Source: Acidobacteriota bacterium
GTDB taxonomy: Bacteria; Acidobacteriota; Vicinamibacteria; Vicinamibacterales; 2-12-FULL-66-21
Length of the DNA: 64,000 nucleotides
Reading direction: 5' to 3'
Assembly: GCA_003222675.1 (NCBI GenBank)
Contig: QHWT01000047.1
Location: forward strand, 124,069-188,068
The notes under the pieces are model-generated. The model had not been told where the DNA came from. It made no database searches and worked only from the letters and a program-made list of their open reading frames with translations. Of this stretch, positions 472 to 22,126 are shown piece after piece (the stretch's first letter is position 1; each line of letters starts with the position of its first letter). The position numbers were made by a program, and so were the translations under genes.

Positions 472-1917
472 CTAATACTTCGGCTGCGAGGGATCGATCC
501 GATCGATCCACGCCAGGATCCCGCCTTTCAGGTTGAACACGTTCTTGAACCCGCGCTCCTGCAGGAGCGCGACAGCCTTCGCGCTGCGGCCGCCCATCTT
601 GCAATGGACGACGAGTTCGCGTGAGGGATCGAGCTCCCCGGCGCGCGCGGCGACCTGGCCGAGCGGGATCAGCTTCGAGCCTTCGATGCGGCAGATCTGG
701 TACTCGTTCGGCTCGCGCACGTCGAGCAGGTACACGTCCTCGCCGCGGTCGTAGCGCGCCTTCAATTCCTCCACCGTGATCTCCGGCACCGTCGGCGCGG
801 CATTGGCGGCTTTTTGTGGCGGGGTGACGCCGCAGAAGGCATCGTAATCGATCAGCGTCTTGATCGTTGGATGATCGCCGCAGACCGGGCAGTCGGGGTC
901 CCGGCGCAGCTTCAGCTCGCGGAACTTCATCGACAAGGCGTCGTACAGCAGCAGCCGGCCGACGAGCGGCTGCCCTGCGCCAAGAATCAGCTTCACCGCT
1001 TCGGTCGCCTGGATCACGCCGATGATCCCGGGCAGCACACCCAGCACGCCTCCCTCGGCGCAACTCGGGACGAGGCCCGGAGGCGGTGGCTCTGGATAGA
1101 GGCACCGATAGCAGGGTCCATCCGGCACCGCGAACACGGCCGCCTGCCCGTCGAATCGGAAGATGCTGCCGTAAACGTTCGGCTTGCCGAGCAGCACGCA
1201 GGCGTCGTTGACAAGATAGCGGGTCTGGAAATTATCGGTGCCGTCGACGACGAGGTCGTAGTCGCGGAGGATGTCGAGCGCGTTCTTCGATGTCAGCGCC
1301 ACTTCGTGCGTCACGACGTTCAGGCTCGGGTTCATCGCCTGCAGGCGCTCCTTCGATGCCTCGAGCTTCCGCCGTCCCACATCCGGTGCGCCGTAGATGA
1401 TCTGCCGATGCAGGTTGCTCGCGTCGACGGTATCGAAATCGACCAGACCGATCGTGCCGACGCCCGCCGCGGCGAGATACATTGTCGCTGGCGATCCAAG
1501 CCCGCCCGCACCCACGCACAGTACGCGTGCAGCCTTCAGCTTGCGCTGACCCTCGACGCCGACCTCCGGCATGATCAGATGACGGCTGTAGCGCTGGATC
1601 TCATCCCGCGTCAGTTCCGGCGTCTCGCGTTCGACCGTCGTGCTCCCCCCCGCGACGGAGGGGACGATGGTGACGGTGTCTTTCGGCGTGACCGGCGTCG
1701 ATTCCCGCTGCAGGTGACGGATGTCTTCGTCGTTGACGTAGATGTTGACGAAATTCCGGAGCTTGCCTTCGTCGGAGTACAGGTGGCGCCGTAAATCTCC
1801 GTGCTGCGCGATCAGCGCCTTCAACAGATCGCCGATCGTGGCGCCTTCGAGTTCGACGGTGTCGCGGCCGCCGGTGAACGGGCGAAGGGGGGTGGGAATC
1901 AGGATTCGGGTCGCCAT
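472..1917 (-). CDS. Sulfur-carrier/E1/rhodanese fusion (MoaD-like + MoeB/ThiF + rhodanese), 481 aa
   Basis: Predicted to load sulfur onto a ubiquitin-like carrier. Residues 1-91 are a MoaD/ThiS-like fold ending in a Gly-Gly pair at 90-91. Residues 105-345 are a MoeB/ThiF adenylating domain with the GAGGLG nucleotide loop at 136-141, NLHRQ at 168-172, DGTDNF at 225-230, a CYRC pair at 269/272 and a CPVC pair at 343/346. Residues 375-481 are a rhodanese domain with active-site Cys439 in HCKMGGRS. The internal ATG at 1917 is chosen because MoaD homology begins there; it overlaps the upstream JAMM gene by 19 bases. Mycobacterial MoeZ has the E1-rhodanese part with a separate carrier, CysO; here the carrier is fused and its Gly-Gly is internal, so cleavage would be needed to expose it. 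It is the last gene of the run. Domain calls are firm; the physiological sulfur acceptor is inferred. Confidence 0.9.
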   Translation of the reverse strand: MATRILIPTPLRPFTGGRDTVELEGATIGDLLKALIAQHGDLRRHLYSDEGKLRNFVNIYVNDEDIRHLQRESTPVTPKDTVTIVPSVAGGSTTVERETPELTRDEIQRYSRHLIMPEVGVEGQRKLKAARVLCVGAGGLGSPATMYLAAAGVGTIGLVDFDTVDASNLHRQIIYGAPDVGRRKLEASKERLQAMNPSLNVVTHEVALTSKNALDILRDYDLVVDGTDNFQTRYLVNDACVLLGKPNVYGSIFRFDGQAAVFAVPDGPCYRCLYPEPPPPGLVPSCAEGGVLGVLPGIIGVIQATEAVKLILGAGQPLVGRLLLYDALSMKFRELKLRRDPDCPVCGDHPTIKTLIDYDAFCGVTPPQKAANAAPTVPEITVEELKARYDRGEDVYLLDVREPNEYQICRIEGSKLIPLGQVAARAGELDPSRELVVHCKMGGRSAKAVALLQERGFKNVFNLKGGILAWIDRIDPSQPKY

Positions 1918-2327
1918 TGAATCTCCTCGCGCGCGAACGCGACGCGATCGTCGCGCAACCGCCAGCAGGTCACGTCCGCCGGCGCCGCGCGAACCACGGA
2001 CACGATGATGTAATCGATGTTCGGCCAGGCGTGCAGCAGATCGTACTGCGACGGTTCGGCCGCTGCATCCGGATGCGAGTGGTAAAAGCCGAGCAGCGAT
2101 ACCCCCTCGTCGAGCGCCCGCGCTTCGACGTTCAGATAATCCCGAGGGCCGATCGTGAAGCGCCGCTGGCGATCGTCCTGAGACGTGTTGGCCAGCGGCC
2201 ATGCCGCCGTGACGAGGCGCGACCGGCCGTCCGCGCGGCCGAGGAGCGCGCCGCAACACTCCTGCGGATAGGCGGCCGCCGCATGGCGACGAATCGCACT
2301 CATCGCTGACCCGTCCAGCATGATCAC
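1899..2327 (-). CDS. JAMM/MPN+ zinc peptidase (Mec-like), 142 aa
   Basis: Small metal-dependent isopeptidase of the JAMM family. The full signature is visible: catalytic Glu23 in PQECCGALLG and the zinc motif H-S-H-P-D-x5-S-x2-D (His83, His85, Ser93, Asp96). In mycobacteria the relative Mec removes cysteine from the carrier CysO; in Wolinella the relative HcyD trims residues beyond the Gly-Gly of HcyS. Its coding sequence overlaps the threonine-synthase-like gene by 4 bases and the carrier-E1-rhodanese fusion by 19, which points to a shared pathway. Likely jobs are processing the internal Gly-Gly of the fused carrier, releasing the amino-acid product, or both. Family assignment is secure; substrate is inferred. 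Confidence 0.87.
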   Translation of the reverse strand: MIMLDGSAMSAIRRHAAAAYPQECCGALLGRADGRSRLVTAAWPLANTSQDDRQRRFTIGPRDYLNVEARALDEGVSLLGFYHSHPDAAAEPSQYDLLHAWPNIDYIIVSVVRAAPADVTCWRLRDDRVAFAREEIQWRPES

Positions 2328-3598
2328 GAACGCCCGCTGGCGCCGGAGGCGGCGCCGGCGGCCAGCCCCGCGCTCCGCAAGTATGCTTCGAACTCGTCGA
2401 GCGAGCGGCCGATCTCGATCGGTTTCTGCAGGCGTCCGCCGACGGTTTCCGCGGCGGTCTTGTAGCCGTTACCGGTGATGCACACGACAACGGATTCATC
2501 CGGTGCGATGACACCCTGTCGAATCAGCGAAACGGTGCCGGCAAGCGTCGCGCCGCCGGCCGGCTCGGTGAAGATCCCTTCGGTTTCGGCGAGCAGCTGA
2601 ATCGCCCCGAGGATCTCCTCATCCGTCGAGGCGACGCCCGTGCCGCCGGTGGACTGCACCGTGCGCACGACCTGAAAGCCGTCAGCGGGATTACCGATCG
2701 CGATGGACTTCGCGATTGTCGAGGGCTTCACGGGCTCGGGGAACTCCAGGCCTTGTTCGAGCGCCCGCACCACCGGTGCGCATCCGGCCGCCTGCGCCGC
2801 GTGGATTTTGGGAAGATCCCCGCTTACCAGCCCGATCTCCTTCAGCTCGCGCAGACCGCGCGCGATACGCGGCAGCAGCGTGCCTCCCGCCACCGGCGAC
2901 ACGATGTGGCTTGGAAAACGCCACCCGAGCTGCTCGGCGATCTCGAAGCCCATCGTCTTCGCGCCTTCCGCGTAGTACGCGCGCAGGTTGATGTTCGCGA
3001 AGCCCCAGCCGAGACGGTCTGCAATCTGCGTGCAGAGGCGATTCACGTCGTCGTAGTTGCCCCGGACGCCGACGATGTGCGGATGGAAGATCGCGGAGCC
3101 GAGGATCTTTCCAAGCTCGAGATCGTTCGGGATGAAGACGAAGCATTCGAGGCCAAGGCGCGCCGCGTGCGACGACACGCTGTTCGCAAGGTTGCCGGTC
3201 GACGCACACCCGAATACATCGAACCCGAGCTCGATTGCCCGTGTCGCCGCGATTGACACCACGCGATCCTTGTAAGAGAGGGTCGGATGATTGACGGAGT
3301 CATCCTTTATATAGAGCTCGTCGACCCCGAGCGTCGCGGCGAGGCGCCTCGCGCGGACGAGCGGCGTGAACCCGGAGTTGAACCCCGTCCGCGGCTCCCC
3401 TGTGATTGGCAGGAGCTCGCGATAGCGCCACAGGTTCGGCGGCCGGCTCTCGACAATCTCGCGCGTAAGGCGCTGTCGCACGAGCGCGTAGTCGTACACC
3501 GCTTCGAGCGGCCCAAGGCACTCGCGACAGACCCAGAGCGCCTCTGCCGGATACTTCGCGCCGCACAGGTGACACTTCAGGCCGAGCAAGGTTGTCAT
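2324..3598 (-). CDS. Threonine-synthase-like PLP enzyme, candidate thiocarboxylate-dependent synthase, 424 aa
   Basis: Fold-type II PLP enzyme of the threonine synthase family. An N-terminal zinc-ribbon-like set (Cys9, Cys12, Cys24, Cys27) precedes the catalytic domain; the PLP lysine is Lys110 in TLSYKDR, and the phosphate-binding loop is ASTGNLANS. Threonine synthases convert O-phosphohomoserine to threonine. A second, more standard threonine synthase gene lies in the same run at 7711-9036, so this copy may be specialised. It follows homoserine kinase with a 4-base overlap and precedes the JAMM and carrier genes with another 4-base overlap. This resembles the CysM-CysO-Mec and HcyS-HcyD sulfur-transfer sets, where a PLP enzyme uses a thiocarboxylated carrier. 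It could therefore make homocysteine or cysteine rather than threonine; that is inference. Confidence 0.82.
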   Translation of the reverse strand: MTTLLGLKCHLCGAKYPAEALWVCRECLGPLEAVYDYALVRQRLTREIVESRPPNLWRYRELLPITGEPRTGFNSGFTPLVRARRLAATLGVDELYIKDDSVNHPTLSYKDRVVSIAATRAIELGFDVFGCASTGNLANSVSSHAARLGLECFVFIPNDLELGKILGSAIFHPHIVGVRGNYDDVNRLCTQIADRLGWGFANINLRAYYAEGAKTMGFEIAEQLGWRFPSHIVSPVAGGTLLPRIARGLRELKEIGLVSGDLPKIHAAQAAGCAPVVRALEQGLEFPEPVKPSTIAKSIAIGNPADGFQVVRTVQSTGGTGVASTDEEILGAIQLLAETEGIFTEPAGGATLAGTVSLIRQGVIAPDESVVVCITGNGYKTAAETVGGRLQKPIEIGRSLDEFEAYLRSAGLAAGAASGASGRS

Positions 3599-4485
3599 TC
3601 GTCATTCCCCTGATGAACCGTCAAAGTGCGAACCGTGCACGGGACGCGCGCGCGCCGATACAGCGCACCCAGCGCGCGAGCCACGGCCGGCGCGTGGCGG
3701 CGCGCAATCGCGACGACCGAGGGCCCGGCGCCGCCAAGGCACACTCCAAGCAGATCAGGATGCTGCAGTTCGAGGGCCCGACGCAACTGCGGGACGAGCG
3801 GCTGCCGGTAGTCTTGATGGCAGCGGTCGCGAAGCGCTTCCGAGAGCGCTGCCGTATCACGGTCACGAACGGCCGCGAGCAACAGCGCGACGCGCTGCAA
3901 GTTGAAGACCGCGTCTTCCAGCGGGATGCGCTTCGGCAGCACCCGGCGCGAGGTCGAGGTGGACAGCTGCATCTCGGGTGTCGCTACTATGACGCGCCAG
4001 GCCCGCGGCCAGTTCCAGCGCGCGACCTTCACGTCGCCTGCGTCCGTGACGCAGCTGCTCGTCAAGCCGCCGAAAAACGCGGCGGCGGCGTTGTCGGGAT
4101 GCCCTTCGAGCTCGCACGCAACCCGCACCAGATCCTGTGGGGAACGGCGCCCATCGCTCAATTCGCGAAGGCGCAGTCCGGCGATCGTCGCGGCAGCGCT
4201 GCTGCCCAGTCCTGCGCGCTGCGGAATGTCGCTGCGCACGTCCACGGCAATCGACGGCCGCTGCCGGCGCGTCGGCCGAAGCGCATGGAACGCGTGCTCG
4301 ATCCGGTTCTGCCCGCGCGGCACGCCGTTGATGAAGCGGCAGACGAGCCGTCCGCGCCCATCGTCTGCGATTTCTCGTACGCGGATCGTCAGATAAAGCG
4401 CCACCGCCAGACCGAGCGTGTCGAATCCCGGGCCGACATTGCCAATCGATGCTGGAACACGGATATCGCGCGTCACGCGCTGCAT
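3595..4485 (-). CDS. thrB: Homoserine kinase, 296 aa
   Basis: GHMP-family kinase that phosphorylates homoserine to O-phosphohomoserine with ATP. The N-terminal PASIGNVGPGFDTLG, the ATP loop GLGSSAAATIAGL and the C-terminal GGAGPSVVA are the three GHMP motifs. The length fits the family (about 300 aa). It overlaps the sulfite reductase gene upstream by 13 bases and the threonine-synthase-like gene downstream by 4, so the set is probably translationally coupled. Its position between sulfite reductase and the second threonine-synthase-like gene, rather than beside the canonical thrC, is unusual and suggests that its product feeds both threonine and a sulfur-containing product. Confidence 0.93.
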   Translation of the reverse strand: MQRVTRDIRVPASIGNVGPGFDTLGLAVALYLTIRVREIADDGRGRLVCRFINGVPRGQNRIEHAFHALRPTRRQRPSIAVDVRSDIPQRAGLGSSAAATIAGLRLRELSDGRRSPQDLVRVACELEGHPDNAAAAFFGGLTSSCVTDAGDVKVARWNWPRAWRVIVATPEMQLSTSTSRRVLPKRIPLEDAVFNLQRVALLLAAVRDRDTAALSEALRDRCHQDYRQPLVPQLRRALELQHPDLLGVCLGGAGPSVVAIARRHAPAVARALGALYRRARVPCTVRTLTVHQGNDE

Positions 4486-6314
4486 TCACCGTCCTGCACG
4501 TCTGGCACGAATGCCTGGTCTTCGCCAGGATCGATGAAGTCTTCCGGCCTCGCCTGCTCCTCGGTCATCTGCTCGAGATCGGCCACGGCGGCGCGAGCGC
4601 GGGCGGTGTCGACGCGCGCGAAGAAGGAGACGGCGGTTTCGCGCGGCTGGCGTTCGCGCTCGTACAGGCTCACGAGACGATCGATTGCCTCCGGCACCCG
4701 CCGCGCCGGAATCTTCGCCGCGAGGCGGCCGAATGCCGCCTGCTCTCCCCTCGTCTCCCCGCCCACCATCAGGAAATACTGCGGCAGCACGCGGTCGCCG
4801 AGCTTGCGAATGCTGCCCTGCAGGCCGATTCCCGCGACGTGGTGATGTCCGCAGCCATTCGGGCATCCGCTGATCTTGATACGCAGGTCGCGCACCTGCG
4901 CGGTCGACGTCGAGGTGGCGAGATGTTCTCGAATGAGGCGGCCGACGCCGCGCGATTGCGTGACGGCGAGTCGGCAGGATTCGGCGCCCGGGCAGCTCGT
5001 GACGTCGTCGATCGACGCCGCACCCGGGGTACCGAGGCCCGCAACCGCCAGACGGCGGTACAACGCCGGCAACTGCCCGCTGCGCACCCACCGCAGCATC
5101 ACGTTTTGTTCAGGAGTGGTGCGCACGAGGCCATCGCCGTACGATTCGGCGAGCGCCGCGAGCACGCGCAATTGTCCCGACGTCAGATCGCCGAGCGGCA
5201 GCGTGACGGTCACGATCGAATGTGCTGGCTGCTTCTGCGGCCGCACGTTGCTGGTCAGCCACGCCGTGCGCTCGCCGCTCGGCCCGCCGTCCTGCGCGCT
5301 CGACGGCGGATGGATGCCGGGCCCGTGCGTGGGCGTTGTCGAGGCCAGCTCCGCGATGGCCTCGACCGATGGCACTTCGGATCGCGTCCATGAAGGCGCC
5401 TCTTCGGCAGGCGGGTTCTCCGGATCGAATGGAAGCCGTGGAATGCCTTCCGCACGAACCGCCTCGAGCTCCCGCGTGACCGCATCGCGGAACGCGTCCC
5501 ATCCCATCTTCTTGATCAGGAACTTCAGCCGGTTGCGCTGCTTGTGCTCGAAGTCGCCGTTGGCATGAAATACGCGAAGCACGGCCTCGGCGACTGCGAA
5601 GATCTCTCCCGCCGGCACGAAGTTCGAGAACTCAGCGCCGGCGCGACACATGATCGACGTGCCGCCGCCCACGGTCACACGGAACCCGCGCCGTTTCGAT
5701 CCATCCGGCGCAAGCCTCGCGCGCCAGCCGATGTCGTTGACGGCGGTCACCGCGTGATCCTCTGGGCAGCCCTCGAACGCGATCTTGAACTTCCGCGGCA
5801 GCGACGCGCTGAGCGGATGACGCAGCAGGTATCTCGTCAGCGCCTCCGCGTACGGCGTCACGTCGAACAGCTCCTCACGCGTCACGCCGGCGTAGGGGCA
5901 CGCCACGATGTTGCGCACCGAGTTGCCGCACGCTTCACGCGTGGTCAGGCCCACGTCGGCGAGACGTCGCATGGCGAGCTCGACATCGTGCAGCTGTACG
6001 AAGTGGAACTGCAGGTTCTGCCGCGTGGTGACATGGCCGAAGCCGCGCGAATACCGCTCGGCGACGTCCGCGAGCGCGAGCAGTTGCTCGCCGTTCAACA
6101 CGCCTTGCGGCACCTTCACCCGCAGCATCTGCGCGTCTTCCGCCTGCCGCTGGCCGTACGTGCCGCGCACGAGACGGAACCGTCGCCACTCTTCGGCATC
6201 GATTTCGCCGCGTTCGAAACGGCCGAGCGTCTCGACGAACTCATCGATCTCCGCGGGTTCAGCAAACGACAGCCGCGCGCGTCCTGCGGTCTGGGGATCG
6301 TCTAGGACAGACAT
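4473..6314 (-). CDS. sir: Siroheme [4Fe-4S] sulfite reductase (nitrite/sulfite reductase family), 613 aa
   Basis: Two-repeat hemoprotein of the assimilatory nitrite/sulfite reductase family. The N-terminal ferredoxin-like half-domain includes RGTYGQRQ and TTRQNLQFH. The cluster/siroheme ligands are in the C-terminal half: TSCPGAESC (C-x5-C) and SGCPNGCG (C-x3-C). It reduces sulfite to sulfide by six electrons, probably with ferredoxin since no NADPH flavoprotein subunit is adjacent. Sequence alone does not separate sulfite from nitrite reductases, but the two siroheme synthesis genes upstream and the sulfur-carrier genes downstream favour sulfite. It overlaps the methyltransferase gene by 13 bases and thrB by 13. 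Confidence 0.88.
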   Translation of the reverse strand: MSVLDDPQTAGRARLSFAEPAEIDEFVETLGRFERGEIDAEEWRRFRLVRGTYGQRQAEDAQMLRVKVPQGVLNGEQLLALADVAERYSRGFGHVTTRQNLQFHFVQLHDVELAMRRLADVGLTTREACGNSVRNIVACPYAGVTREELFDVTPYAEALTRYLLRHPLSASLPRKFKIAFEGCPEDHAVTAVNDIGWRARLAPDGSKRRGFRVTVGGGTSIMCRAGAEFSNFVPAGEIFAVAEAVLRVFHANGDFEHKQRNRLKFLIKKMGWDAFRDAVTRELEAVRAEGIPRLPFDPENPPAEEAPSWTRSEVPSVEAIAELASTTPTHGPGIHPPSSAQDGGPSGERTAWLTSNVRPQKQPAHSIVTVTLPLGDLTSGQLRVLAALAESYGDGLVRTTPEQNVMLRWVRSGQLPALYRRLAVAGLGTPGAASIDDVTSCPGAESCRLAVTQSRGVGRLIREHLATSTSTAQVRDLRIKISGCPNGCGHHHVAGIGLQGSIRKLGDRVLPQYFLMVGGETRGEQAAFGRLAAKIPARRVPEAIDRLVSLYERERQPRETAVSFFARVDTARARAAVADLEQMTEEQARPEDFIDPGEDQAFVPDVQDGECSA

Positions 6315-7072
6315 AGGGCCTCGACCGAACTGGTGATTTGATGATTTTGGGATTTGGCGATTGCGAGAACGTTGACAACCTCGCCGACGACGATCGTGCC
6401 CGCCGCGTGTCTCGTGATGTCGCGCTCGCCGCGACGCAGTCCGTCCAACGTGCCGCGCCAGACGTGCTCGTCGGCATGCGATGCATCACAGACGATCGCG
6501 GCCGGCGTCGAGCGGTTCCAACCAGCGGCGACGAGCGCACGGGCGATCTCCGCGCGATTCGCAAGGCCCATCATCACGACGATGGTTGCGCTGTGCGGCT
6601 CGAGCGACGCGAGCACCGGTTCAAACGCGGACGCCGCGTGACCGGAGACCACGACGAACGCTGACGCGACGCCGCGGTGCGTCACGGGAATGCCCGCAAT
6701 CAGCGGCGCCGCCACGGCCGTCGTGATCCCGGGCACGACCTCGCAGCGGATCCCGGCCGACGCCAACGCCAGCGCTTCTTCGCCGCCGCGGCCGAACACG
6801 AATGGATCGCCGCACTTCAACCGGACCACTCGCTGCCCGCTCCGTGCGGCGCGGATCATCCGTTCGTTGATCGCGTCCTGCGCGATAGCAGGCTGACCGG
6901 CGCGCTTTCCGACGAAACAGCGACGCGCGCGCGTGGCAAAGGTCAGGGTGTCGGTTGAGACCAGCGCGTCGTACAACACGAGGTCCGCCTCGGCGAGACG
7001 GCGGACAGCCTTCAGCGTCAGCAGCTCGGGATCTCCGGGTCCCGCGCCGACGAGCGATACCAAGCCGTTCAT
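6302..7072 (-). CDS. cobA: Uroporphyrinogen-III C-methyltransferase, 256 aa
   Basis: SAM-dependent tetrapyrrole methylase that makes precorrin-2, the first committed step to siroheme. The start at 7072 begins MNGLVSLVGAGPGDPELLT, matching the family N-terminus and overlapping the upstream sirC stop by 4 bases. Visible motifs are VGAGPGDPELLTLKA, the VRLKCGDPFVFGRGGEE loop and VVPGITTA. The protein corresponds to the C-terminal domain of E. coli CysG, here split from the dehydrogenase. The last 20 or so residues (AKSQNHQITSSVEALCLS) are encoded by a low-complexity 'ggtgattt' stretch related to one at 32404-32440, so the tail may be a later addition. Confidence 0.92.
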   Translation of the reverse strand: MNGLVSLVGAGPGDPELLTLKAVRRLAEADLVLYDALVSTDTLTFATRARRCFVGKRAGQPAIAQDAINERMIRAARSGQRVVRLKCGDPFVFGRGGEEALALASAGIRCEVVPGITTAVAAPLIAGIPVTHRGVASAFVVVSGHAASAFEPVLASLEPHSATIVVMMGLANRAEIARALVAAGWNRSTPAAIVCDASHADEHVWRGTLDGLRRGERDITRHAAGTIVVGEVVNVLAIAKSQNHQITSSVEALCLS

Positions 7073-7650
7073 TGTCCTGCTCCCGTTGCCGTGTGATCGT
7101 AAAGCGCGTTCAGCGCGTCGAGCAGCTGCGGACGCCGCGACGACATCGGCGTGCCTTGCGCGCGCCAGTTCCGGCGCATCTCGCGAGCGCGCGCGAGCCA
7201 TGCGTTCATCTCGTCACCCGTGGGCAGCACGGCGTCGAGCGCCTGGCGCAGCAGCCCGGCGAGCGCCGGCGCGGCGCCGTCGGTCGAGATTGCGATCGTG
7301 GCGCCTCCGCGTTCGACGACGCCTCCCAGATAGGCGCTGGCGTTCGATGGATCGTCAACCGCATTCACGAACACTCGCCGGCGCTCAGCCTCCATCGCGA
7401 CGAACTGGTTCACGTCCGGCGGCCCCGCCGCCACGACGAACCACACATCGTCGAGATCCTCGGGCACGAATGGACGCCGCGCGATGTTGCTGACCGCGGC
7501 GTCGATCGCGTCGCAGACGTCCGGCGCGACGACGCGGAGCTCGGCGCCCGCGCGCTGCAGCGCCGCCACTTTCGACGCCGCCACAGGCCCGCCGCCAACG
7601 ATCAGCACCCGGCGACCCTCGAGTTTCAAGAACGTGGGAAAGAGAGCCAT
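7069..7650 (-). CDS. sirC: Precorrin-2 dehydrogenase (Met8/SirC type), 193 aa
   Basis: NAD-dependent dehydrogenase converting precorrin-2 to sirohydrochlorin, equivalent to the N-terminal part of CysG. A Rossmann loop VLIVGGGPVAASKV is near residue 15, followed by a region ending FVNAVDD and AYLGGVVERGGATIAISTDGAAPALA, which is diagnostic of the Met8 family. At 193 aa it lacks the C-terminal methylase, which is encoded by the overlapping next gene. It may also insert iron, as CysG and Met8 do, because no separate ferrochelatase is visible here. A 60-base spacer with short palindromes separates it from thrC upstream. Confidence 0.9.
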   Translation of the reverse strand: MALFPTFLKLEGRRVLIVGGGPVAASKVAALQRAGAELRVVAPDVCDAIDAAVSNIARRPFVPEDLDDVWFVVAAGPPDVNQFVAMEAERRRVFVNAVDDPSNASAYLGGVVERGGATIAISTDGAAPALAGLLRQALDAVLPTGDEMNAWLARAREMRRNWRAQGTPMSSRRPQLLDALNALYDHTATGAGQ

Positions 7651-7710: not shown

Positions 7711-9036
7711 CTAAGCTGGCACGGCCCGGTCGAGCGCCCTGCGCACGGCGTCGTAATCGTCGGGCAATTCGACGGGCTTGTTGCCGCACGCCCGGCCCAC
7801 GCCTCTCAACGTTCCTTCGTGGTACCCGACCTTGAAGTCGGTGAATTTCAAACCGTTCGCCGTCGAGAGCACCACGACGCGTTCGTCGCGGCCGATCTCG
7901 CCCCGCGCGACGAGCTTCATCAACGCGGCGAGCGCCACACCGGTGTGCGGGCAATTGAACATGCCCGTCCGATCCGCGCGTGCGGCCGCGTCTGCCAGCT
8001 CCGCCTCGCTCGCCTGCTCGACGATCCCGTCGCAACGCTGCAGCGCGCGGATCGCTTTCTTGATCGAGACGGGATTGCCGATCTGAATCGCCGACGCGAG
8101 CGTGGTCTTCGCGGCGATCGGCTGGTACCGCCACTGGTTGCGGTATGCGCGATACAGCGGATTTGCCGCTTCGGCCTGCGCGGCGACGAGCCGCGGCGCG
8201 CGCGACGTCAAGCCGAGCGCGCGCATCATCTCGAACCCCGCGGCAATGGCGCTGACGTTTCCCAGGTTACCGCTGGGCACGACGACAACTTCCGGGACCT
8301 CCCAGTCGAACTGCTGCGCGATCTCAATTGCGACGGTCTTCTGTCCCTCGAGCCGCAGGCTGTTCATCGAGTTCGCGAGGTACATCCCCTCTTCCGCCGC
8401 GAGCCGCTCGATCACTGCCATGCATCCATCGAAGTCGGTATCGAGAGCGAGCACCAGCGCGCCGTTCGCAAGCGGCTGCACGAGCTGCGCGGACGTGACC
8501 TTCTGCCGCGGAAGAATCACGATCGCCGGAATACCCGCCGCTGCCGCGTAGGCCGCGAGCGATGCGGAGGTATCGCCGGTTGATGCGCACCCGACGGCCC
8601 GGATATGCCGGCCGTCCGCGATCATCTGCTGCACGGCCGAGACGAGCACCGTCATCCCGAGATCTTTGAACGAGCCGGTGTGGGAGTTGCCGCAGAGCTT
8701 CACCCACAGATCGTCCAGACCAATCTCGGCGCCAAACCGCTGGGCATAAAAAAGGTTCGTCCCGCCTTCGTCCATCGACACGACGTTTTCATCGCGGACG
8801 GATGGGGCGACCCACTCCTTCTTGCCCCACACGCTCGACCCGTACGGCCACGCCGTGCGCTTGTAGCGATCGTCGAACAACCGCTTCCATTCATCAGCGC
8901 TGCGGTCGCGGAGCGCGCGGAGATCGTGGACGACCTCCAGCAGCTCGCTGCATTTGGGGCATCGATACAGGACCTCGTCCAGCGCATACGCGCCGTCGCA
9001 CCCCGCCGTGCACTGGAGGGTCGCGCGATACGTCAC
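7711..9036 (-). CDS. thrC: Threonine synthase, 441 aa
   Basis: PLP enzyme converting O-phosphohomoserine to threonine. Cysteines C9, C13, C26 and C29 resemble a zinc ribbon at the N-terminus; the PLP lysine is in HTGSFKDLG; the phosphate loop is [18 protein letters not shown]. It starts with GTG at 9036, overlapping the homoserine dehydrogenase stop (GTGA). Because it directly follows aspartate kinase and homoserine dehydrogenase, this copy is the best candidate for the true threonine synthase, leaving the paralog at 2324-3598 free for another role. Confidence 0.92.
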
Positions 9037-10373
9037 GCCGTGACCTCCGCTGGCGCCCTGCCGTCGAGCACGGGCATCGCCAGCATCGGGACGAGGTGAA
9101 AGTCGAACGCGCCGATCTCCGCGAGCGCCGCGTTGACGGCGGCCGACGGCGCGGCATCGAGGCTGACGATGAACGGCCGCTGGCTCGCAGGGAACCCGGG
9201 CTCCTGAAGGATGGCGTCGATGTTGATCTCGTACTTCGCGAACACGGACGCGAGCGCCGCGATGATCCCGGGGCGATCGACGACGGTGAAGCGCACGTAG
9301 TATGGCGTCGCCGCGTCGGACGAGACGCGAGCGGATCGTTCCGCGCGCGGCCGCACAGCGGGGCGCGCGCCCCGCGCGATCGTCAGCACGTCCGACAGCA
9401 CCGCCACGGCGGTTGGGTCTCCTCCCGCGCCGCGTCCGCCAAAGGTCGTTTCACCTCCGAAGCGTCCCTGGATCGAGACGAGGTTTTCGCTGCCATTGAC
9501 GGCGGCAAGCGGCGACTCGAGGGGCACGAGCGTGGGACCAACGCCCGCGCACAGTTCGAGATCACCGTTGCGCTCGGCCCACGCGATCTGCCGGATCGTG
9601 CAGCCGAGGCGTCGTGCGTAGCGGAAATCGACTCCGTCCACGGTTGCGATCGATCGCGTCGCAATCGCGTCGGGGGGCGCCTGGATCCCGAGCGCCACCA
9701 TCGCGAGAATGGCGAGCTTTGCCTGCGCGTCGAACCCATCGATGTCCTGCGACGGATTGGCCTCGGCGTAGCCGAGCGCCTGCGCTTCGCGCAGCGCGTC
9801 GGCGAACGCAGTGCCCTCGCGTTCCATCTTCGTCAGAATGTAGTTGCAGGTGCCGTTCAGGATGCCGGCGACGCGCGTCAGCCGGTCGCCGGCGAGGCCG
9901 CTTTCGATTGCGCGAATAACGGGTACGCCGCCGGCGACAGCCGCCTCGAATCGCAGGTGACAATCATTGGCCGCCGCGGCATCGAGCAGCGACGCGCCGT
10001 CCCGCGCGATCACCTGCTTGTTGGCCGTGACGACGGAGATGCCCCGCGCGAGCGCGCGGCGGATCCAGTCTTCGGCAGGCGAGCGCCCGCCAATCAATTC
10101 GATGAAGACATCGATCGGCCGGTCGAGGACCTCCTCGATTGAATCGGTCCACCGCACAGCGCCGTCGACCCAGTCGACACGCTTCCGATCGACGTCACGA
10201 TTGAGAATGGCGACGAGCTCCACCTCACGCGCCGCGTCCTGCAGCAGGCGCGCCGCCGATCGGCCGACGGTGCCAAACCCCGCAAGCGCTACGCGGCATC
10301 GGCCTTCCGCGCCGGTCGACACCCGACTCGTGACTTTCGGCTCGGGACCAGGGACCAGCGACTGGAGACTCAT
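9033..10373 (-). CDS. hom: Homoserine dehydrogenase, 446 aa
   Basis: NAD(P)-dependent reduction of aspartate semialdehyde to homoserine. The Rossmann motif [13 protein letters not shown] starts near residue 32; [11 protein letters not shown] and [15 protein letters not shown] are the conserved substrate-region motifs; an ACT domain near residues 345-430 ([20 protein letters not shown]) suggests end-product regulation, most often by threonine. The N-terminal 25 residues before the Rossmann fold are extra and a later start is possible. ATGA overlap with aspartate kinase upstream and GTGA overlap with thrC downstream. Confidence 0.94.
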
Positions 10374-11770
10374 TGGTTCACCGCCAAGGGAAAGTCGCCC
10401 GGCCGCGACGCGTTCGCCTCGAACAGGAACCCGTCGTGCAGCCTCGTCAGCGTCGATTCCGCGTGCGCCTCGTCAACGACCAAGGCCAGCGGCGAGCTCC
10501 CTGATGGCCGCGCGACCATGTGCACCGGCGTATCCCCCAGCACGGCCAGCGCATCGCGGATGAGCCGCGGCTCGGCGGACCAGCCGCGGCCGACGGCGCA
10601 CACCGCGGCGAGTCCGCGACGCAGCCGCACGTCCGCAAACGCCGCGACGCCGCTGCAGAAGCCGTCGAAGTCGGCCGAGTCGTCGACCGCGACCGACAGG
10701 CGATTGCCGCAGAGGTCCGCGAGCACGACCGGGGTGCCTCCCTGCGCCAGCACGTGAAACACCTTCGCGGCGAAAAACTCGCGGCCGCGCGTGTCGCGCG
10801 AGATCACCTCCACCAGCGTCACGCCGCTGCGACACGCAACCGCCGTCAACCGCGGGTCGACATCGAGATCAGTGTGCGGCCCGATAATCGTTCCGGTCGC
10901 GTCGGGACGGCGCGAGTTGAGCACGCGGACGGGAATGTTGCGGGCCGCCGCCGGCTGAATCGTCGCGGGATGCAGCACCTTCGCACCGAATATCGCAAGG
11001 TCGTGCGCCTCGGCGTACGACAGCCGCTCGACGAGCCGCGCGTGCGCAATGACGCGAGGGTCGGCGGTGAGAATGCCGTCGACATCAGTCCAGATCTGAA
11101 TTTCGTCGGCCGAAAGGCATGCGCCGAGGAGGGCCGCGGAATAATCGGATCCGCCGCGCCCGAGGGTTGTGGTCGATCCGTCCGGCGCCGATCCGATGAA
11201 TCCGCCGATAACCACGACCCGATCCGATGCGAGGAGCGGTCGAACGAGTTTGTCGACCGCGCGAGCGGTAGGGACGAGATCGGGCGTGGCGGCCTGGTAT
11301 CGGGCATCGGTGTGGACGATTTCGGGCGGGTCGAGCCAGCGCGACGCAATGCCCGCGTCCTCGAGCAGCGCCGCGACGAGGCGGCTGCTCCACAACTCGC
11401 CGGTCGCGACGAGACGATCCGCCGAGGCGGGCGTCGGCCTCGCGCGCCCGGCCGCGCGGATCGCGGCGACGGCGCCGCGCGCGGAACGTGAGAGCCCGTC
11501 GATGCCGGCGGAGAGCAGGCGACGCCGTTCGGCATGGCGGACCGCGCGCGCGACGTCATGGTGCCGCGCCGTCAGGCCGTCCAGCGCGCGGAGCGCCGCG
11601 TGTTCGTCGGCGCAGGCGACCTCGCCGATCTGCAGGAGCGCGTCGGTGACGCCGGCGAGCGCCGAGACCACCACCACGCGCGCGCCGCGCTGCGCGCCCA
11701 CGATGGCAGCGGCACGCCGGATGGCGTCCGCGTCGGCGACCGACGTTCCTCCGAATTTGAGCACCAGCAT
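10370..11770 (-). CDS. ask: Aspartate kinase (threonine/sulfur operon copy), 466 aa
   Basis: Phosphorylates aspartate, the entry to the aspartate family. The ATG at 11770 gives MLVLKFGGTSVADADAIRR, the standard kinase N-terminus; earlier in-frame codons belong to the attenuator region. Other motifs are GRGGSDYSAALLG, IWTDVDGILTADPR and FGAKVLHPATIQP, followed by C-terminal ACT domains. A second aspartate kinase lies in the lysine operon (28695-30068), so the two are probably under different end-product control. It is the first structural gene after the leader at 11874-11969 and the terminator at 11808-11846. Confidence 0.94.
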   Translation of the reverse strand: MLVLKFGGTSVADADAIRRAAAIVGAQRGARVVVVSALAGVTDALLQIGEVACADEHAALRALDGLTARHHDVARAVRHAERRRLLSAGIDGLSRSARGAVAAIRAAGRARPTPASADRLVATGELWSSRLVAALLEDAGIASRWLDPPEIVHTDARYQAATPDLVPTARAVDKLVRPLLASDRVVVIGGFIGSAPDGSTTTLGRGGSDYSAALLGACLSADEIQIWTDVDGILTADPRVIAHARLVERLSYAEAHDLAIFGAKVLHPATIQPAAARNIPVRVLNSRRPDATGTIIGPHTDLDVDPRLTAVACRSGVTLVEVISRDTRGREFFAAKVFHVLAQGGTPVVLADLCGNRLSVAVDDSADFDGFCSGVAAFADVRLRRGLAAVCAVGRGWSAEPRLIRDALAVLGDTPVHMVARPSGSSPLALVVDEAHAESTLTRLHDGFLFEANASRPGDFPLAVNQ

Positions 11771-11807: not shown

Positions 11808-11846
11808 AAAAACAAAAAACCCGCCGGCTTGTGAAGTCCGGCGGGT
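11808..11846 (-). terminator. Attenuator terminator before aspartate kinase
   Basis: On the minus strand CCCGCCGG and CCGGCGGG form an 8-base stem (plus-strand arms 11820-11827 and 11838-11845) followed by T6-G-T6. It lies 38 bases before the kinase start, after a leader ORF. GTCCGGTGG at 11896-11904 can pair with CCGCCGGAC at 11836-11844, giving an alternative antiterminator. Confidence 0.85.
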
Positions 11847-11873
11847 GTTTACGGTGCACGCAGTCTGAAACGA

Positions 11874-11969
11874 TCAGGGTGCATATACGCAAACGCCACC
11901 GGACACGCGAATTCGCATGGTGCGATTTCGCATGCTGGTCTTGGTGGCGGTGCAGCTACAGCAGCCCAT
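11874..11969 (-). CDS. Leader peptide of the threonine/sulfur operon, 31 aa
   Basis: ORF ATG 11969 to TGA 11874, starting MGCCSCTATKTSMRNRTMRI, then a tail with Val, Gly, Cys and Tyr. It carries four Thr (all ACC), three Met, one Lys, one Ile and four Cys, i.e. aspartate-family and sulfur amino acids. The antiterminator strand GTCCGGTGG lies in codons 22-25, so a ribosome stalled on the upstream Cys/Thr/Met codons would leave it free, while one reading to the stop would cover it and allow the terminator. The ATG lies 8 bases after a -10 box with no Shine-Dalgarno, so the transcript may be leaderless. Regulation by translation is inferred. Confidence 0.65.
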   Translation of the reverse strand: MGCCSCTATKTSMRNRTMRIRVSGGVCVYAP

Positions 11970-11977
11970 TAACCGCG

Positions 11978-12007
11978 AGTATAGGCACCTCGGCGAGCCG
12001 GCGTCAA
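11978..12007 (-). promoter_or_regulatory. Promoter of the threonine/sulfur operon
   Basis: Minus strand TTGACG (12002-12007), 18-base spacer, TATACT (11978-11983). It is a near-consensus sigma70 promoter directed at the leader ORF. The lysine-operon leader has the same TTGACG-N18 arrangement. Confidence 0.75.
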
Positions 12008-12061: not shown

Positions 12062-12091
12062 TTGACACCTGCTGCCATGCGGACCGATCAT
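12062..12091 (+). promoter_or_regulatory. Possible ilv operon promoter
   Basis: TTGACA at 12062-12067 is a perfect -35; with an 18-base spacer the -10 would be GATCAT (12086-12091), which is weak. The spacing to the leader ATG (7 bases) matches the two minus-strand leaders. TATAAG at 12055-12060 is an alternative -10 with a poor -35. Confidence 0.4.
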
Positions 12092-12098
12092 GGAGGCC

Positions 12099-12167
12099 AT
12101 GACGACCTGCGTCGGGGTGTCGCTCGCCATTCGACTTATTGGAGTTACGGCCCTCAGCGCCGGATGA
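12099..12167 (+). CDS. ilv operon leader peptide, 22 aa
   Basis: ATG 12099 to TGA 12165-12167, reading MTTCVGVSLAIRLIGVTALS plus Ala-Gly. Eight of 22 residues are branched-chain (three Val, three Leu, two Ile) and three are Thr, the isoleucine precursor. An in-frame ATG at 12090 would add three residues. ACGGCCC at 12147-12153, inside the peptide's distal codons, is complementary to the 5' arm of the downstream terminator (GGGCCGT, 12200-12206). This is the classical ilv/leu attenuation layout: stalling on the Val/Leu/Ile codons frees the antiterminator. Confidence 0.75.
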   Translation: MTTCVGVSLAIRLIGVTALSAG

Positions 12168-12199
12168 CGACGCCCCTTATCGAGACGACAGATTTTACG

Positions 12200-12232
12200 G
12201 GGCCGTCATCCACAAGGGTGACGGCCCTTTTT
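12200..12232 (+). terminator. ilv attenuator terminator
   Basis: GGGCCGTCA (12200-12208) pairs with TGACGGCCC (12219-12227), a 9-base perfect stem with a 10-base loop, followed by TTTTT. It sits between the leader peptide and ilvD. The 5' arm can instead pair with ACGGCCC at 12147-12153. Confidence 0.88.
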
Positions 12233-20467: not shown

Positions 20468-22126
20468 AGATTCCGCGAGACCAGTACGCGGGCCTCTATG
20501 GCCCAACGGCCGGCGATCGCGTGCGTCTCGCCGACACCGGTCTCGTGTTGCAGATCGAGCGCGACTTCGCGCGATATGGGGAGGAGGTGCCGTTCGGCGG
20601 CGGCAAGGTCGTGCGGGATGGGCAGGGTCAGTCGCAGGTGTCGCGCGGGGAAGGCGCGCCGGATCTCGTCATCACGAACGTGATCGTCCTCGATCACTGG
20701 GGCGTGGTGAAGGGGGACGTCGGCGTCCGCGACGGCCGCATCTCGGCGATCGGCAAGGCGGGAAACCCCGGCATCCAGGACGGCGTGACGCCGGGCCTTG
20801 AACTCGGCGCATCGACGGAAATCATCGCCGGCGAGCATCGTATTCTGACGGCTGGCGGGATCGACTCGCACATCCATTTCATCAGTCCGCAGCAGGCGTG
20901 GGAAGCGCTCTACAGCGGCGTCACGACGATGATTGGCGGCGGCACCGGACCGGCGGACGGCACGCGCGCCACGACGTGCACGCCGGGCGAATGGCACATC
21001 CACCGGATGATCGAAGCCACCGACAGCCTGCCGCTCAACTTTGGTTTTCTGGGCAAGGGCAACGCGTCGCGCGAGGAGCCGCTGATCGAGCAGGTCCGGG
21101 CCGGCGCGATCGGCCTCAAGCTGCACGAAGATTGGGGCACAACGCCGGCAACAATCGATGCGGCGCTCACCGTCGCGGACGCGTACGACGTGCAGGTCGC
21201 GATCCACACCGACACGTTGAACGAGTCGGGATTCGTCGAGGATACGCTCGCGGCCATACGCGGCCGCACCATCCACACCTATCACAGCGAAGGCGAGGGA
21301 GGCGGCCATGCGCCCGACATCCCCAACGATGCCGTTCACGGTGAATACGCTGGACGAGCACCTGGACATGCTGCTCGTGTGCCATCACCTCAACGCGCAG
21401 GTGCCGGAAGACGTGGCGTTCGCGGAATCGCGCATCCGCCCGGAAACGATGGCGGCCGAAGACGTGCTGCACGATCTCGGCGCGATCAGTATGATGTCCT
21501 CCGACTCGCAGGCCATGGGACGCGTCGGCGAGGTGATCATGCGGACGTGGCAGACAGCGCACGTCATGAAGGCTGCGCGCGGTCCTGTTGCGGGAGACCC
21601 GCGGGAGCACGACAACCGGCGAATTCGGCGGTATCTCGCGAAATACACGATCAATCCCGCGCGCGCGCATGGCATCAGCGAGTATGTTGGATCGATCGAG
21701 GTCGGCAAGTACGCGGACCTGGTGTTGTGGTCCCCCGCGTTTTTTGGCGTCAAGCCGGATCTCGTGATCAAGGGCGGCTTCGTCGCCGCCGCTTTGATGG
21801 GCGATCCCAATGCCTCGATCCCGACACCAGAGCCGGTGCGGTACCGTCCGATGTTCGGCGCCCTGGGTCGCGCGACAAGCGCCGTGTCGTGGACGTTCGT
21901 GTCTCAGGCTTCAATCGACGAACATCGGTTGCCGTCACGCGTCGATCGTGCGCTGCTGCCGGTGCATGGCACGCGCGCGCTCGGGAAGCGCGACATGATT
22001 CTCAACGACGCGTTGCCGCGAATCGATATCGACCCTGAACGTTATACCGTCGTCGTCGATGGCGAGGCAGTCGTGCCCCAACCCGCCGCGACGCTTCCTA
22101 TGGCCCAGCGATATTTCCTGTTCTGA
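20464..22126 (+). pseudogene. ureC: Urease alpha subunit, disrupted by an internal deletion/frameshift
   Basis: Catalytic urease subunit in two frames. From 20464 the frame reads [20 protein letters not shown] through GIDSHIHF (nickel His pair), the carbamylated-lysine region [18 protein letters not shown] and [15 protein letters not shown]. At about 21318-21323 homology jumps to another frame reading [24 protein letters not shown] (active-site flap Cys-His) and [12 protein letters not shown] (nickel Asp), ending PMAQRYFLF at 22126. Intact UreC has about 15 residues (around GEPNVLPSSTNP) between these points. A loss of 44 bases (or another length giving remainder 2 on division by 3) fits. Every catalytic residue is encoded but not in one frame. 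All other ure genes look intact, so an assembly error or a recent mutation is likely. Confidence 0.9.

Follow-up and report, generated by a model that had tools for sequence, protein, structure and literature searches.

The window analysed here, a 64,000-nt stretch of contig QHWT01000047.1 (GCA_003222675.1) to whose positions all coordinates refer, contains a fused threonine and sulfur operon that is probably preceded by a ribosome-mediated transcription attenuator. As judged from the sequence of the window and its relatives, this attenuator would be opened by a shortage of threonine or cysteine. The parts of this reading differ in firmness. That the attenuator is real is highly probable, and sensing of threonine by its leader is very likely; sensing of cysteine is likely, mostly from the evidence of other genera. 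Threonine control is the firmer half, and the cysteine half is weaker in the genus that comprises the window and its congener G001.

In this uncultured member of the Acidobacteriota, of Vicinamibacterales type, the operon lies on the minus strand in the order lysC-hom-thrC1-met8-sumT-sulfite reductase-thrB-thrC2-mec(JAB)-cysO-like-moeZ (Table 1). From lysC through thrC2 every gene overlaps its neighbour, the sole gap being 60 nt ahead of met8. The family matches give threonine, siroheme, reductase and sulfur-carrier genes, in agreement with the threonine/sulfur operon that an earlier sequence-only reading of this DNA had placed downstream of the leader. The hemoprotein is taken to be a sulfite reductase from its operon context; it and hom each have one strong genome match. 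From family likeness, we compare the JAB/Mec, ThiS/CysO-like and MoeZ genes with the route by which mycobacteria make cysteine through a sulfur carrier. The second threonine synthase-like enzyme, ThrC2, adjoins these genes (472-3598, minus strand), an arrangement that may be compared with the mycobacterial thiocarboxylate route; the substrates of this PALP enzyme might be a carrier thiocarboxylate together with O-phosphohomoserine or O-phosphoserine.

Table 1. Leader elements and genes of the operon, with positions in the window
Feature	Position	Strand	Evidence or remark
-35 box TTGACG	12002..12007	-	identical in G001, 18-nt spacer there too
-10 box TATACT	11978..11983	-	identical in G001
Leader ORF, 31 codons, MGCCSCTATKTSMRNRTMRIRVSGGVCVYAP, then stop	11874..11969	-	G001 counterpart MGRCPQNLSTTTMRNCITRIRTSGGGSA, then stop
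Proposed Cys control codons 3, 4, 6	11952..11963	-	place in stall-folding profile
Proposed Thr control codons 7, 9, 11	11937..11951	-	stall-folding profile; Thr17 at 11921-11919
Segment 1, CGCCACC, codons 7-9	11943..11949	-	fold; pairs with segment 2 if ribosome-free
Inner hairpin, codons 12-22, possible pause hairpin	11903..11935	-	fold; almost unchanged in G001
Segment 2, antiterminator strand GTCCGGTGG	11896..11904	-	duplex p=0.004; invariant in G001
Segment 3, CCGCCGGAC, terminator 5' arm and segment 2 partner	11836..11844	-	pairing, duplex energy
Intrinsic terminator hairpin (segments 3:4), ACCCGCCGGACTTCACAAGCCGGCGGGT plus T tract	11814..11846	-	fold; conserved in G001
lysC, aspartate kinase, first gene of operon	10370..11770	-	TIGR00657 above cut-off, PF00696
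hom, homoserine dehydrogenase	9033..10373	-	profile searches
thrC1, threonine synthase-like	7711..9036	-	TIGR00260
met8-type siroheme synthase N-domain protein	7069..7650	-	TIGR01470
sumT, uroporphyrinogen-III C-methyltransferase	6302..7201	-	TIGR01469
Nitrite/sulfite reductase hemoprotein	4473..6314	-	PF01077 and PF03460; best NCBIfam model below cut-off
thrB, homoserine kinase	3595..4485	-	TIGR00191
thrC2, threonine synthase-like PALP enzyme	2324..3598	-	TIGR00260
JAB/Mec-like metalloprotease	1899..2327	-	PF14464
ThiS/CysO-like sulfur carrier, then MoeB/MoeZ-type adenylyltransferase with rhodanese domain	472..1917	-	PF02597, PF00899, PF00581

The TTGACG-N18-TATACT promoter proposed by the sequence-only reading is located where that reading placed it and has 10 of the 12 consensus bases; two such sites occur in 1.3 kb, against 0.2 expected. 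Translation of the 31-codon ORF that follows bears out the proposed composition of four Cys, four Thr, three Met, one Lys and one Ile, with Cys codons at positions 3, 4, 6 and 27 of 31 and no run of them near the stop. The ATG is only 8 nt downstream of the -10 hexamer in the window and 7 nt in G001, which suggests a leaderless ORF: the 5' end of the leader mRNA would very probably lie at or just ahead of the ATG. By itself, the leader is mildly unusual in Thr content (p=0.043). Its Cys content alone is within chance (p=0.23), so that the case for Thr and Cys together is built on the relatives.

The strong terminator expected downstream is present as a GC-rich hairpin followed by a T run, and the 9-base complementarity to its 5' arm reported by the same reading is likewise found, GTCCGGTGG:CCGCCGGAC forming 9 bp with one G-U pair. 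The antiterminator GTCCGGTGG:CCGCCGGAC and the terminator CCGCCGGAC:GCCGGCGGG share the strand CCGCCGGAC and are mutually exclusive. Since the length of strict Watson-Crick complementarity discriminates too poorly where GC content is high, we used duplex energies instead: the 2:3 duplex has -19.7 kcal/mol versus -11.3 kcal/mol for 500 dinucleotide-shuffled versions of the upstream sequence (p=0.004). In addition, segment 1 pairs with GGTGGCG (11900-11894), corresponding to the "1:2" partner of classical attenuators, and the whole leader folds better than 200 of 200 shuffles (z=-4.6). An Rfam scan of the site gave no leader family, riboswitch or T-box.

The divergent gene ilvD was considered as a possible user of the same hairpin, and this was rejected: read on the plus strand, the sequence after the hairpin is TGTTTAC and thus no T-run. 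The ilvD side has a second, divergent attenuator of its own (12062-12228, plus strand), consisting of TTGACA-18-GATCAT, a probably leaderless ORF MTTCVGVSLAIRLIGVTALSAG ending in a stop codon (12099-12167, plus strand) and a terminator (12199-12228); G001 has MTKVVGVSVVIRLLGITALRAG and a stop codon at the same place. Elsewhere in the window, Rfam reports a match to 5_ureB_sRNA (20625-20895, minus strand; 55.7 bits, cut-off 40), which may be antisense to a coding gene.

G001 has the same divergent arrangement, and its leader region is 72% identical to that of the window. The -35 and -10 boxes with their 18-nt spacer, the frame of the ORF, the terminator and the invariant antiterminator GTCCGGTGGCG are all kept. 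Lack of conservation of the leader ORF, antiterminator and terminator had been named beforehand as evidence against the attenuator; in G001 all of them are conserved, as is the promoter spacing. The two ORFs can be aligned in the same frame free of gaps over codons 1-25. In G001, threonine occurs as the run TTT at codons 10-12, and there are two Cys codons only, of which Cys4 is positionally common with the window and the other is at codon 16. The G001 operon is split over three contigs (lysC start; lysC-hom-thrC1; sumT-sir-thrB-thrC2). For the genus of the window, cysteine control is argued from Cys codons 3, 4 and 6, of which G001 retains one, together with the correlation seen in other genera.

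From these parts, we infer the following course of transcription start, translation, termination and response to the two amino acids. RNA polymerase would start at the leader AUG or one to two nucleotides away from it, and translation would begin without a Shine-Dalgarno site. When Cys-tRNA and Thr-tRNA are ample, the ribosome would reach the stop codon and cover segment 2, so that segments 3 and 4 would pair and transcription would stop after ~155 nt. If the supply of Thr-tRNA or Cys-tRNA falls short, the ribosome would instead stall in codons 3-17 and cover segment 1, best at Cys6 and Thr7/9/11 and poorly at Cys3; segments 2 and 3 would then pair, allowing readthrough into lysC...moeZ. The leader would act as an OR gate for two amino acids that the operon supplies.

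The effect of stalling was calculated for each codon in turn: with that codon in the ribosomal A site, the RNA ahead of the ribosome was folded at equilibrium as far as segment 3 reaches. For stalls at codons 2-18, segment 3 is ~60-70% paired to upstream RNA; from codon 20 on, including the stop codon, its pairing is 0-40%. This places the switch point after codon 19, with Cys3/4/6 and Thr7/9/11/17 in the readthrough zone and only Cys27 outside it. In the leaders of fused operons described below (hybrid leaders), Cys and Thr codons make up 50/153 codons before versus 8/78 after the switch point (p=2e-4), and over all leader classes the odds ratio before versus after it is 3.1 (p=2e-12). Position counting that assumes an E. 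coli-like footprint indicates that a ribosome stalled at Cys3 would not cover enough RNA to prevent 1:2 pairing, and that Cys6 and Thr7-11 are best placed for blocking segment 1. The naked, untranslated leader has an antiterminator pairing of 0.62, versus ~0.6-0.7 when stalled. Because its folding does not clearly favour termination, what is computed is the difference that stalling makes relative to completed translation and not relative to untranslated leaders, for which equilibrium folding alone gives no prediction of termination.

For comparison, we read the neighbourhoods of hom and sulfite reductase at ~80 loci from the order Vicinamibacterales. Hom and SiR were chosen as anchors because most LysC matches represent a paralogue (~43%); LysC loci from a wider genome collection contained no fused threonine/sulfur operon. 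Three kinds of leader occur in the order. Threonine-only operons, with hom first and no adjoining sulfur genes found, have Thr-rich ORFs (18% Thr and 1.4% Cys codons) whose last codons, GGRTGATG, are complementary to the terminator arm CATCATCC. The leaders of met8-sumT-sulfite reductase operons are poly-Cys ORFs (20% Cys codons), each followed by its own terminator (L277, MSTCICCCCCCKGS; L288, MSMVLCSCCCCCC; L293, MALCCTCCRCQACPC). Hybrid leaders precede fused threonine and sulfur operons (n=7, drawn from two families only): besides the window and G001, they are L253 (MFGTACCPVISIIGTPATAGMGMRSCITGAGAEQ), L260 (MFSVIATTTTGCRTARPTRACWCVPTAGCGG...), L315 (MFGTACCTVISIGTMTRTGMAMRSCITGAGAEQ), L319 (MSVRASALWRTRPCMCCLCTCRC..., Cys-heavy with few Thr) and L316 (MSGQACITVISMTCTRATCTRMRSRFIGVGADEN), which is placed here though its contig stops before any sulfur genes.

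The codon content of these leaders follows the content of the operons. Per codon, Cys accounts for 10.8% in hybrid versus 1.4% in threonine-only leaders (p=9e-8; per-leader test, 9e-5), Thr for 14.3% in hybrid versus 7.3% in Cys-type leaders, and Met for 8.4% in threonine-only versus 4.8% in hybrid leaders, contrasts that ignore kinship and are inflated because the leader ORFs of the relatives were picked partly by their Thr and Cys content. This bias is avoided by a frame-agnostic count, namely, the largest number of Cys or Thr per 20 codons in any ORF ending before the terminator. By this count, which likewise ignores kinship, at least three Cys are found in 30/33 sulfur-operon leaders versus 2/16 threonine-only leaders (Fisher p=1e-7) and in 5/7 hybrid leaders versus the same 2/16 (p=0.01), and at least four Thr in 5/7 hybrid versus 2/22 Cys-type leaders (p=0.003). 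The sequence-only reading had predicted control by aspartate-family or cysteine tRNAs; the tracking of operon content by leader codons across the order upholds this for Thr and Cys. This support does not reach Met, Lys and Ile: the window leader has a single Lys and a single Ile, and its Met codons belong to a part whose RNA structure is conserved.

The position of the attenuators varies as well. In seven fused operons (L263, L267, L309, L310, L312, L313 and L314) an internal poly-Cys attenuator lies between thrC2 and met8, and these operons have no recognised front attenuator. No internal poly-Cys attenuator was found before met8 in L253, L260, L315 and L319, which have a hybrid front leader, as would be expected if the Cys codons of the front leader replace it. 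In L311, L320, L324 and L325, a Cys leader lies directly 5' of thrB-thrC2-met8-type genes, after hom where hom is seen.

Several further observations were made among these loci. Thr-rich leaders 5' of hom (L234, L236, L240, L241, L251, L268, L269, L273 and others) have their stop codon in or beside the antiterminator GGRTGATGTAGC, to which a conserved terminator arm, GGCCATCATCC, is complementary; the leaders 5' of hom in L244, L250 and L254 have many Leu and Thr codons and the terminator GGGCCATCACCC. Poly-Cys leaders with intrinsic terminators precede met8-sumT-sulfite reductase in L275, L277, L281-L284, L286-L288, L290, L291, L293, L322, L323 and L328. The terminator motif of one family, CCCGGGAGGCT..CTTCCCGGGC, has exactly one copy in each of 10 genomes and none in the rest of the 193 genomes of the class. 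SAM riboswitches (RF00162) are found in L288 (8576-8679, plus strand) and L282 (5804-5948, minus strand; positions as fetched), in the Luteitalea-like family, downstream of sulfite reductase and upstream of hom/thrC2-type genes; because of this position, a SAM switch may act beside a poly-Cys attenuator in these operons. By eye, no poly-Cys leader was evident at L329, with PAPS-reductase-type genes elsewhere in the window's genome.

Joint control has to be weighed against a leader in which the same mechanism senses Thr-tRNA alone and the Cys codons are incidental. The first three genes of the operon are threonine genes, and both the TTT run of G001 beside its two Cys codons and the chance-level Cys content of the window leader beside its mildly elevated Thr content would fit such a leader. 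However, the hybrid leaders of five other genera have 3-6 Cys each, versus practically none in threonine-only leaders, the sulfur genes of the window are without any other leader, and sister operons control their sulfur genes by poly-Cys leaders; we thus regard sensing of threonine alone as unlikely. The leader might also, additionally or instead, respond to charging with methionine, isoleucine or lysine, given that homoserine and aspartate feed several amino acids. Codons for all three are present in the window leader, and Ile and Met codons also occur in the leaders of L253, L315 and L316, but the window leader has no run of such codons and Met is more frequent in threonine-only than in hybrid leaders, which makes this response rather improbable. 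That the hairpin is simply a constitutive or factor-controlled terminator, with the short ORF untranslated or irrelevant, seems more improbable still. Complementarity of 5-6 nt is indeed common in a GC-rich background; against this stand the retention in G001, at 72% identity, of the frame, the ATG-to--10 position and the antiterminator, and the correspondence of codon and operon content across the order.

Preferring an attenuator that responds to both threonine and cysteine, we propose with moderate confidence that this single leaderless element is an OR gate for the charging of Cys-tRNA and Thr-tRNA, that it arose with the fusion of threonine and sulfur-assimilation operons, its leader codons being rewritten to match, and that it belongs to a larger group of poly-Cys attenuators with terminators in Acidobacteriota, a group that is apparently undescribed. 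Leader codons appear to change when two operons merge, and the threonine-only, Cys-only and hybrid leaders of one order constitute a natural experiment. Whether a single leader can report on two amino acids of separate pathways can be tested directly here, and regulation may be predictable from codons alone for uncultured genomes.

A known counterpart is the leader of E. coli thrABC, which comprises a short ORF with end-product codons, 1:2, 2:3 and 3:4 pairings and an intrinsic terminator, and confers control by Thr and Ile. Like the thr, trp, his and ilv attenuators, the window has end-product codons, the alternative 1:2/2:3/3:4 pairings and an intrinsic terminator. Unlike the E. coli thr leader, it has Cys in place of the Ile run, its RNA probably begins with the ATG, and its operon adds siroheme, sulfite reductase and sulfur-carrier genes to those of thrABC. 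The Rfam Thr_leader covariance model did not match the window even at E up to 10.

Among Acidobacteria, attenuators have almost no assigned function in a published survey (PMC2965389). The literature searched contains no description of Thr/Cys attenuators in this group, an absence that is no proof of novelty; classical attenuation with the combination of Thr and Cys is apparently undescribed. The closest precedent for Cys comes from mycobacteria, where leaderless polycysteine sORFs lie upstream of cys operons, according to the citation of Canestrari et al. 2020 in PMC9094748. In mycobacterial Cys leaders the Cys codons form a run close to the stop, and no terminator hairpins were found with them (Seliverstov et al. 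2005, PMC1262725); their polycysteine control has been described as translation attenuation (PMC13236596). The window leader resembles these sORFs in having Cys codons, in preceding sulfur-assimilation genes and in its predicted response to cysteine supply, and the position of its ATG would fit a leaderless start like theirs. It differs from them in having an intrinsic terminator with a competing antiterminator, in the admixture of Thr codons and in lacking a Cys run by the stop. Further counterparts are the poly-Cys attenuators of other Vicinamibacterales, with which the window shares downstream sulfur genes and a terminator combined with Cys codons, and in several of which the ATG is 6-10 nt past a good -10 box; unlike the window, these leaders have runs of 3-6 Cys and no Thr enrichment, most of them being without a Thr signal.
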